From Candidatus Aerophobota bacterium (GTDB taxonomy: Bacteria > Aerophobota > Aerophobia > Aerophobales > B3-G15): a stretch of 33,649 nucleotides of DNA. Positions 7,496-32,015 of this stretch are shown piece after piece. The translations under genes were made by a program, and so were the position numbers. Position 1 is the stretch's first letter. The number at the start of each line of letters is the position of its first letter. Below the pieces are notes generated by a model that made no database searches, was not told where the DNA came from, and saw only the letters and a list, made by a program, of their open reading frames with translations. Location: assembly GCA_014859225.1 (NCBI GenBank), contig JACUUP010000004.1:1-33649 (forward strand), in the 5' to 3' direction.

Positions 7496-8092
7496 ATGAA
7501 TATCTCTTTTGATAAAGTAAAAAAATTGCGTGCAGAGACTTTAGCTGGCATTGTTGACTGCAAAGAAGCTCTGGAGGAAAGTGAGGGGGATTTAGAAAAA
7601 GCTAAGCTCATCCTCAGGAAAAAAGGTATAAAGATTGCTGAGAAAAAGAGTGAAGAGGCTACAAATCAGGGGTTAATTGCCTCTTATATTCATCATAATA
7701 GACGGCTTGGAGTTTTAGTAGAGGTTCAGTGTCAGTCAGACTTTGTGGCGAGGAGTGGAGAATTTCAGCAGTTTACCCGAGATGTAGCAATGCAAATAGC
7801 GGCAGGTAGGCCTAAATGGATTTCTCAGGAAGATGTTCCAGGAGAAAAAATAGAAGAGGAAAAGGAGATTCTGTCAGAAGAGGCGCAAAGGGAAGGAAAG
7901 CCTCCTCACATTATTGATAAAATAGTTCAGGGCAGAATGAAAAAATTTTACCAACAGTTTTGTCTGCTTGAGCAACCTTACATAAAAGATGAAGAGAAGA
8001 CTGTAAGTGAATACCTGCAGCAGATAGTCGCTAAATTAGGGGAAAATATTAAAATAAATCGTTTTGTAAGGTTTGAGGTGGGTGGAACATAA
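7496..8092 (+). CDS. tsf: Translation elongation factor Ts
   Basis: Guanine-nucleotide exchange factor that recycles EF-Tu-GDP. At 198 aa it is the short form, close to that of Thermus, rather than the roughly 280-aa E. coli type. The N-terminal UBA-like domain is present ([19 protein letters not shown]), followed by the exchange-domain motif [14 protein letters not shown] and the C-terminal [11 protein letters not shown]. The Shine-Dalgarno GGAAGGG lies about 10 nt upstream, inside the end of rpsB. The gene is tightly coupled to rpsB and pyrH. Confidence 0.96.
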
Positions 8093-29594: not shown

Positions 29595-30710
29595 TTATTT
29601 CTTTGTTTTGCCCCAGGCATAAATTACAGGGGTTGCTACGAAACTGGATGAGTAGGTGCCAACAATCACTCCCACAAGAAGTGCGAAAGTAAATCCACGC
29701 AGAGGCTCTCCCCCCCACAGGAAAAGAATAAGAACGACAATAAAAGTGGTTAAAGAGGTTATAAGGGTGCGAGAAAGAGATTGGTTTATACTTAGGTTAA
29801 GAATCTTTTTTGAGGGAAGCTTCTTTTTTCTAAGTGTTTTGATGTTCTCTCGTATCCTGTCGTAAACAACAATTGTATCATTTAACGAATATCCAATAAT
29901 GGTTAAAATAGCGGCAACAATTGGAAGTGTAAATTCAAAATTAAATAAGGAGAGCAGTCCCACAGCGATTACAACATCGTGGGCAAGGGCTATTACCGCT
30001 CCTGCGGCAAAGCGAAACTCAAACCTCCATCCAATATAAATGAGCATGCCGATTAAACTAAAGGCAATTGCCAGAAGAGCGTTGCGTTGCAATTCTTCAC
30101 TCACCTTAGGTCCCATTAAGCTTACACTTAAAATTTCAAAGGGATTTTCTTTATTCACAAATTCAGTCTGGATAGCTTCTTGTATCTTAGATGCCATCTC
30201 CCGCGAGGTAACATCCTGAATAACAGATGCAAGGGCATCTTTTGTAGCCTTGTTTAAATTAATCTTATCAATCCTTTCAATATCAAGCGTAAGTTCTGTT
30301 ATTAGGTTTTCATATCCAATCCCCTCTATCCCGGGGATATTTTTCAACTCTTCAATACTTTGAAACTCGCCTTTGCTCTGGCGATAATCTATTATATTTG
30401 TGGCTATCACATCTGAAATTTCCTCCAGGTGGTATCTTATAAGGACAGTGTTTTCCTCCTGAGGCCCATAACGCTGGATAACCGCTCCTCCCAGACCAAC
30501 TCCCGAAAGAGCAGACCTTATCCTACCTATCTCAAAAGAGTTCTCAAATTTTAAGTGAGTTTCCATTCCTCCTGTAAAGTCAAGTCCTAATCCCAGCCCT
30601 CCTTTTAAAGCTATGGAAGATAAGCCAACCACAATAGCTATAATAGAAATGATAAAAGCCACCTTTCTCCATTTAATAAAATCTATATTTGTTTCACCTA
30701 AAAGTTGCAT
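29595..30710 (-). CDS. secF: Protein translocase subunit SecF with HhH-like insertion
   Basis: Inner-membrane SecDF partner that uses the proton gradient to pull proteins through SecYEG. The first helix (17-35), the FTGGMETHLKF motif (45-55), SVSLMGPKVSEEL (195-207) and the membrane core with SLNDTIVVYDRIRENI are typical. The protein is 371 aa rather than about 300. The extra length lies in the periplasmic domain, residues about 100-168. There YRQSKGEFQSIEELKNIPGI and INLNKATKDAL resemble the two halves of ComEA-type helix-hairpin-helix repeats, in reverse order. secD lies 12 nt upstream. The Shine-Dalgarno is AGAGGTA. Confidence 0.93.
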   Translation of the reverse strand: MQLLGETNIDFIKWRKVAFIISIIAIVVGLSSIALKGGLGLGLDFTGGMETHLKFENSFEIGRIRSALSGVGLGGAVIQRYGPQEENTVLIRYHLEEISDVIATNIIDYRQSKGEFQSIEELKNIPGIEGIGYENLITELTLDIERIDKINLNKATKDALASVIQDVTSREMASKIQEAIQTEFVNKENPFEILSVSLMGPKVSEELQRNALLAIAFSLIGMLIYIGWRFEFRFAAGAVIALAHDVVIAVGLLSLFNFEFTLPIVAAILTIIGYSLNDTIVVYDRIRENIKTLRKKKLPSKKILNLSINQSLSRTLITSLTTFIVVLILFLWGGEPLRGFTFALLVGVIVGTYSSSFVATPVIYAWGKTKK

Positions 30711-30722
30711 TTTTACCTCTTT

Positions 30723-32015
30723 TTAAATACTCAGTTTTTGTACGGGTTTTCCCTCAAGAATGAGGTTAAATATAGCCCTCGTTACAACTACCGCGGTAAA
30801 TAAACTTGCCAGTATTCCAATGGAAAGAGTAGTGGCAAATCCTTTTACCGGACCTGTCCCAAATTGAAATAAAAGAAGAGAAACGATGAGCGTGGTAATG
30901 TTAGCATCAAGTATTGTGCGCAAAGCTCTGTCATACCCAACATCTACAGCAGAGCGAGGAGCCCTTTCTCTTCTAAGCTCCTCTCTAATCCGTTCAAAAA
31001 TAATCACATTTGCATCCACACTCATTCCTATGGTGAGAATCATTCCTGCAATACCGGGAAGGGTAAGCGTAGCTTTTAGGGCGGCAAGAGCTGCCATGAT
31101 AAAAATAAGATTAAGGATTAAAGCGGAGATTGCAATCATTCCTGCTTTTTTGTAGTAAATTCCCATAAAAATAATAACGGCTACAAATCCAGCTAATCCA
31201 GAGATTAAACCTTTTTGTATAGAGTCTCTACCCAGAGAAGGTCCAATGGTTGTGTGTTGAATAATGTTAAGAGGGACAGGGAGTGCGCCTGATTTTAAGA
31301 CTATTCTAAGCTCCGATGCCTCGTCCATGGTGAAGTTTCCCTCTATTACTGCTTTCCCCCCGGTAATCCGCGTTCTTATCACAGGAGCCGATTTTACCAC
31401 GTCATCCAGTATTATGGCTAATCGCTCTCCAATATGTCTTCCCGTAAGCTCGGCAAATTTTTCTGCTCCCTCACTGGTGAAATCAATAGATACGTAGGGC
31501 TGACCCCACTCGCCTATCTCCACGCGCGCATCTTTTATGGCGGCTCCGGTTAAAAGAGATTCTTTTTCTACCACGTAAGCTTTTCCCTCAGCATCATACA
31601 ATAGCTCGCTTCCAGAAGGAACGTTGCCCTCCAATGCTGCCTGGATATCGGCTCTTTCATTCAGCAACTTAAAGTCTAACAGTGCTGTTCTTCCGATAAT
31701 ATCTATTGCTCTTTGTGGCTCCTCTATGCCAGGAAGGTCAACTACTATCCTCTTTTCCCCCTGGCGTGCTATAGTTGGCTCCATAACCCCGAACTGGTCT
31801 ATGCGATTTCGGATAATCTCAAGGGCGGTATCAACCGTATCTTTCACGCTAACACCGGGAGGAATCCTGGTTTCATCTGCTTCCAGTACAAGATGCATTC
31901 CTCCTCTGAGGTCAAGCCCAAGGTTTATTTTTTCCCCGGGTGGATATATAGCCCAGATAGAGAGGGCAATTAAAACTACGACAAAAAGAAGTATCCACCT
32001 GCTGTAACCTCGCAT
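30723..32015 (-). CDS. secD: Protein translocase subunit SecD
   Basis: RND-type membrane protein forming SecDF. The 430 residues have an N-terminal helix (about 6-24), LGLDLRGGMHLVLEAD (33-48), a periplasmic P1 domain with RIDQFGV and IVVDLPGIE, and the six-helix RND core with the GMSVDANVIIFERIREELR motif (the conserved Asp of the proton path). This is the compact bacterial form. The Shine-Dalgarno AAAGGAGT is well spaced. It is the first gene of secD-secF-murG-murC. Confidence 0.96.
   Translation of the reverse strand: MRGYSRWILLFVVVLIALSIWAIYPPGEKINLGLDLRGGMHLVLEADETRIPPGVSVKDTVDTALEIIRNRIDQFGVMEPTIARQGEKRIVVDLPGIEEPQRAIDIIGRTALLDFKLLNERADIQAALEGNVPSGSELLYDAEGKAYVVEKESLLTGAAIKDARVEIGEWGQPYVSIDFTSEGAEKFAELTGRHIGERLAIILDDVVKSAPVIRTRITGGKAVIEGNFTMDEASELRIVLKSGALPVPLNIIQHTTIGPSLGRDSIQKGLISGLAGFVAVIIFMGIYYKKAGMIAISALILNLIFIMAALAALKATLTLPGIAGMILTIGMSVDANVIIFERIREELRRERAPRSAVDVGYDRALRTILDANITTLIVSLLLFQFGTGPVKGFATTLSIGILASLFTAVVVTRAIFNLILEGKPVQKLSI

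Follow-up and report, generated by a model that had tools for sequence, protein, structure and literature searches.

A SecF variant with a ComEA-like helix-hairpin-helix insert in its P4 domain in Candidatus Aerophobota

The mode of action of the SecDF periplasmic domains is still debated. Joint rearrangements of the P1-base and P4 during the SecDF cycle have been reported (PMC8669966). Helix-hairpin-helix (HhH) domains usually hold DNA by backbone contacts, hairpins to phosphates, and lysine substitutions in the HhH motifs of Bacillus subtilis ComEA impair transformation (PMC9747964). A relative of ComEA binds fibronectin via VNINTA and its HhH motifs (PMC2601033), which means that a ComEA-type module is capable of extracytoplasmic protein binding. 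No mention of SecF together with HhH was found in the non-subscription literature that was searched.

The window (the whole 33,649-nt stretch of Candidatus Aerophobota DNA that was analyzed) carries an adjoining secD-secF pair with the following features.

29595 to 30710, minus strand: secF, HhH-bearing variant, 371 aa (TIGR00966, E = 1.6e-90; PF02355, E = 7.9e-67).
30723 to 32015, minus strand: secD, 430 aa, directly upstream of secF (TIGR01129, E = 1.9e-141).
30213 to 30419, minus strand: P4 insert of ∼69 aa, residues ∼98 to 166, between beta3 and alpha2 (alignment against insert-free SecF; pLDDT of 84 to 90 in blocks spanning residues 101 to 180 in the AF2 model of the whole protein).
30306 to 30431, minus strand: putative HHH_3 half, helix B-helix C-hairpin 2-helix D, residues 94 to 135 (Pfam HHH_3, E = 5.6e-12; hhalign to ComEA of the same order, E = 3.5e-13).
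30303 to 30335, minus strand: putative hairpin 2, PGIEGIGYENL, residues 126 to 136 (Gly to Glu at 129 and basic to Gly at 132, from column counts against 13 ComEA).
30192 to 30266, minus strand: INLNKATKDAL segment, the likely equivalent of the ComEA "INLN-A" plus helix A, residues 149 to 173, leading into P4 helix 2 (hhalign to ComEA positions 1 to 15, E = 2.4e-4).
30114 to 30204, minus strand: P4 helix 2 (end of the predicted helix 157 to 184) and beta4 (191 to 199) (AF2; matches LAQKIQEALREEF of the insert-free SecF L015).

The window SecF scored 303 bits against TIGR00966, compared to an equivalog-domain cut-off of 160. Its P4 domain (residues 48 to 199) falls between TM1 and TM2 (AF2 helices 11 to 35 and 205 to 369). 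Counted on the sequences, it has 69 residues more than the insert-free SecF L015 of the same order, from "LIR" at the end of beta3 to "GPKV," in agreement with the original prediction that the protein is about 70 residues too long. For comparison, Escherichia coli SecF has 323 aa (PDB set), and the ordinary SecF frames surveyed mostly have ∼295 to 325 aa. The surplus had been placed at residues 100 to 168, which correspond exactly to 30207 to 30413, and this stretch does largely coincide with the insertion between beta3 and alpha2; the host domain, however, is P4 of SecF and not P1 as first proposed. The insertion boundaries are clean in alignments with ordinary SecF and with the two insert-free relatives, L015 and L016. 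Because the insert is in frame in 13 SecF genes on separate contigs, an assembly artefact or frameshift was ruled out. The window protein is 65% identical to the SecF of Candidatus Aerophobetes isolate AUK042 (L001), and a contig scan of named genomes returned only this SecF and an Actinomycetota SecF with an ordinary P4 (L002). Two other genes of the window also stand out by their length: SecD is compact (430 aa) compared to the 622-residue SecD chain of 5mg3, and the elongation factor Ts frame at 7496 to 8092 has 198 aa, compared to the 293 positions of the TIGR00116 model.

In the AF2 model of the whole SecF, the front part of P4 consists of beta1 (48 to 55), alpha1 (61 to 70), beta2 (77 to 81), and beta3 (88 to 93). 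Helices at 98 to 113, 119 to 124, 128 to 131, and 133 to 137 and a long helix at 157 to 184 follow, in which helix A is continuous with P4 alpha2, and then beta4 (191 to 199). The P4 topology would be beta-alpha-beta-beta-alpha-beta, ferredoxin-like, with beta4 leading down into TM2. Folded alone by AlphaFold, the insert gave a helical module with a mean pLDDT of 85.9 and a pTM of 0.74. The best Foldseek matches of the whole model were the SecDF structures 5yhf, 5xap, 5xan, and 3aqp, and the isolated insert had no significant match in the PDB, so that the probable HhH assignment stands on sequence homology and not on a fold match. The proposed HhH fold thus gained profile homology and a confidently predicted helical module but not a structural counterpart in the PDB for the insert by itself.

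The sequence homology was detected in several ways. Pfam HHH_3 (PF12836) matched residues 94 to 135 of the window SecF with 46 bits, compared to a gathering cut-off of 27, and also matched 13 of the 13 insert-bearing SecF of the order (E ≤ 0.1) but neither of the insert-free L015 and L016. The NCBIfam comE and ComEA-repeat models matched the window SecF as well, below their whole-protein cut-offs. When searched against the PDB, a profile of the insert region found ComE operon protein 1 (ComEA; E = 1.7e-4) and the HhH protein EEPD1 (E = 1e-6). With ComEA sequences read from the DNA of 13 genomes of the order, hhalign aligned the insert to positions 21 to 63 and then separately to positions 1 to 15. 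Support for the INLNKATKDAL half came from profile methods only and was weak when this half was taken alone. Homology to ComEA and a position in P4, taken jointly, are in our judgment very probable.

The order of the HhH elements in the SecF insert is B-C-hp2-D-A, and the ComEA-type arrangement A-hp1-B-C-hp2-D with both motifs was not found. This order, B-C-D and then A, was described correctly in the original prediction, and its interpretation as a circular permutation can be refined. A doubled ComEA profile gave a single continuous hhalign alignment through B-C-D-A with a score of 83.1, compared to 67.0 for a single copy and 66.3 with a scrambled second copy, so that the "permuted" order would most simply be a single repeat period, taken from helix B onwards and hence in another register, of a tandem (HhH)2 array. 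An independent test of the same kind in the G384 phylum gave 38.5 for the doubled, 25.3 for the single, and 24.9 for the scrambled profile. In such an array, the following helix B would correspond in position to P4 helix 2. Since these phyla have proteins with several consecutive HhH matches, a tandem HhH protein is a plausible source of the insert; that it was the source, we infer. A recent origin of the insert by transfer from the ComEA of the same organism is not supported, as the identity of the insert to its own ComEA was not consistently above that to other ComEA.

Within the order, the insert was found in 13 SecF and was absent from two (L015 and L016), which means that it is dispensable and not essential. 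In a tree of the SecD and SecF core, L015 is nested among the carriers (UFBoot 83), which suggests that the insert was lost there secondarily. At the base of the group stands L016, whose insert-free state could be ancestral or a loss. The L016 protein (genome G008) looks as if the insert's two ends had been joined directly (GVEKTSSEFASEI/SPKVEQAIRGEF), which suggests a deletion.

An Aerophobota profile made from the insert only was run over 76 SecF frames. It matched nearly all SecF of the G136 phylum and most of those of the G384 phylum, covering nearly the whole insert, with E values typically between 1e-11 and 1e-3 (∼0.05 for two G384 members). Elsewhere, the matches were marginal only, and hardly any ordinary SecF was matched. 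Related genomes, in which the original prediction had suggested looking for the same insertion, yielded it in 13 SecF of the order, and the profile matches indicate the same kind of insert, at the same P4 site, in at least two further phylum-level groups. Of 385 broadly sampled genomes, only 11 reached E ≤ 1e-20 with the P4-insert profile, the insert-free G008 among them, and the insert is therefore uncommon; most of the genomes covered by this broad search had been sampled before.

The size of the insert differs widely among phyla. In the G136 phylum (L064/L065 and L069 to L081), SecF has ∼463 to 500 aa and a further HhH-like stretch (RNLGGIQTMRLL...LARDAGLDSEVV) following the first one, so that its P4 seems to hold two HhH modules. 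Larger P4 inserts with similar repeats, about three degenerate tandem modules by eye, were seen in L144 (G034 phylum) and L151 (G044); in L144, the P4 stretch is ∼240 residues and was matched in part by the profile, the protein scoring E = 5.8e-8. The G049 phylum (L017/L066 and L178 to L181) has an HhH-like SecF insert that follows alpha2, keeps the standard order, and may have been inserted independently. Four of four SecF from this phylum align over the insert, and HHH_3 reaches an E value of 5.9e-4, below the cut-off. The long SecF of G043, G045, G048, G054, and G058 have other insertions with no recognizable HhH. Because support at the deep nodes of the SecD and SecF core tree is weak, the tree is compatible with a single origin or several origins across phyla. 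L158 (G003:C76) is an insert-free SecDF pair in a genome that has an insert-bearing pair as well, and the insert-free pair may be genome-bin contamination.

A column-by-column comparison of the 13 SecF inserts with 13 ComEA of the same order bears on the possible function of the insert. The hairpin Gly at 129 is present in 13/13 ComEA and 0/13 SecF, 11 of which have Glu instead. Similarly, K/R at 132 went from 13/13 to 0/13 (Gly in 12 of the SecF), K/R at 137 from 11/13 to 0/13, and Arg at 105 from 12/13 to 0/13, and the shared segment has an average net charge of −1.8 in SecF compared to +2.8 in ComEA. Neither the GxG hairpin nor the basic DNA-contact residues of a ComEA-type HhH were found in the SecF inserts, whereas the helix-core residues Y109, R110, F116, L122, and I128 are largely retained. 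This systematic loss disfavors a nucleic-acid partner, one of those first suggested. Thus, although the homology to ComEA is clear, it is very improbable that the insert is a periplasmic DNA binder that ties SecF to DNA uptake or release: essentially all 13 inserts have lost the contact positions that ComEA of this order retains, the net charge is negative, and a separate canonical ComEA with intact hairpins is present in 13 genomes of the order. A neutral or near-neutral spacer, an HhH fragment drifting in a tolerant surface loop, would fit the two relatives without the insert, one of them nested among carriers, the variable linker and helix A segment (40% identity), and the wide size variation between phyla. 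However, the B-D segment of the insert is as conserved as the P4 front, with mean pairwise identities of 57% and 62%, respectively, compared to 59% for TM1 and 42% for P4 alpha2-beta4. The SecF inserts also share a derived motif, PGIE-x-[VI]-GYENL, that is absent from ComEA, and several phyla have an insert at the same site. A spacer is therefore unlikely, though less easily dismissed than DNA binding.

A protein contact rather than a DNA role is, from the pattern of lost and retained residues, the probable function. One ComEA-type (HhH)2 period would be embedded in SecF P4, entered after beta3 and returning into alpha2, and a DNA-binding module would have changed into one that contacts proteins or confers rigidity. 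Both the end of beta3 and the start of alpha2 are expected on the membrane side, which would place the module at the membrane-proximal base of P4, near the SecD P1-base and SecY/YidC. It may offer P4 an additional surface that faces the SecD P1-base, SecY, YidC, or the preprotein as it emerges, and this extra surface may stabilize or tune the proton-driven P1/P4 movement of SecDF. Such a membrane-proximal placement with a docking or tuning effect on SecDF is offered as one reading, to which we give somewhat less than an even chance. A contact with the YidC P1 periplasmic domain, the SecF binder in E. coli, where residues 215 to 265 of YidC are the reported SecF interaction site (PMC8669966), is hardly credible here, since PF14849 (YidC_periplas) was above the cut-off in none of the 17 genomes of the order, with one sub-threshold match (G005). 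It is also improbable that the insert is an outer-envelope adaptor that, in these diderm lineages, helps to connect SecDF with BAM or with a chaperone of the periplasm. A connection between SecDF and BAM has been reported for E. coli (PMC8669966), and 16 of the 17 genomes of the order encode BamA-type POTRA arrays, but these also occur in the insert-free G004 and G008, and the likely position of the insert at the P4 base is away from the outer membrane.

Beyond the order, the insert could mark an unrecognized, recurrent type of Sec translocon spread over several candidate phyla. Here, P4 would carry one to several ComEA-derived HhH modules that dock or mechanically aid SecDF, and the larger tandem-looking inserts (G136, G034, G044, and G049) would be elaborations; this is a tentative proposal that we would not yet call probable. 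A DNA-uptake domain looks exapted inside a protein-export machine, and the same P4 region is enlarged in several little-studied phyla. A conserved module whose origin is clear and whose place in P4 is well defined, with insert-free close relatives as natural controls, gives a handle on P4 contacts.

Compared with known systems, the window SecF shares with SecF/SecDF (TIGR00966, PF02355) the GG motif, the P4 strands and helices, TM1 to TM6, and the secD-secF pair. It differs from the SecDF of solved structure by the ∼69 extra residues between P4 beta3 and alpha2, and those sequences match only outside this stretch. The type II secretion protein GspK (T2SSK, PF03934) has HhH/SAM-like repeats in a periplasmic secretion protein, as does the SecF insert, and the insert had been likened to both ComEA and T2SS-K repeats. 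The ComEA likeness held by HHH_3 and profiles, but T2SSK gave matches below the Pfam gathering score in 3 of the 13 members (best E = 0.0026) and none in the window SecF at E ≤ 10, and there is no pseudopilin context. A good example of a ComEA-type HhH with VNINTA acting as an extracytoplasmic protein-binding (fibronectin) module is Pasteurellaceae ComE1 (PM1665) (PMC2601033), which keeps DNA binding and, unlike the SecF insert, is a small stand-alone protein. The ComEA (HhH)2 module (PF12836 HHH_3, TIGR01259, and TIGR00426) has in common with the insert the signature of helix B-C-hairpin-D and INLN-helix A. The insert differs in its order, B-C-D-A, in the loss of the hairpin Gly and basic DNA-contact residues, and in being embedded in P4, whereas the ComEA module terminates a membrane-anchored competence protein.
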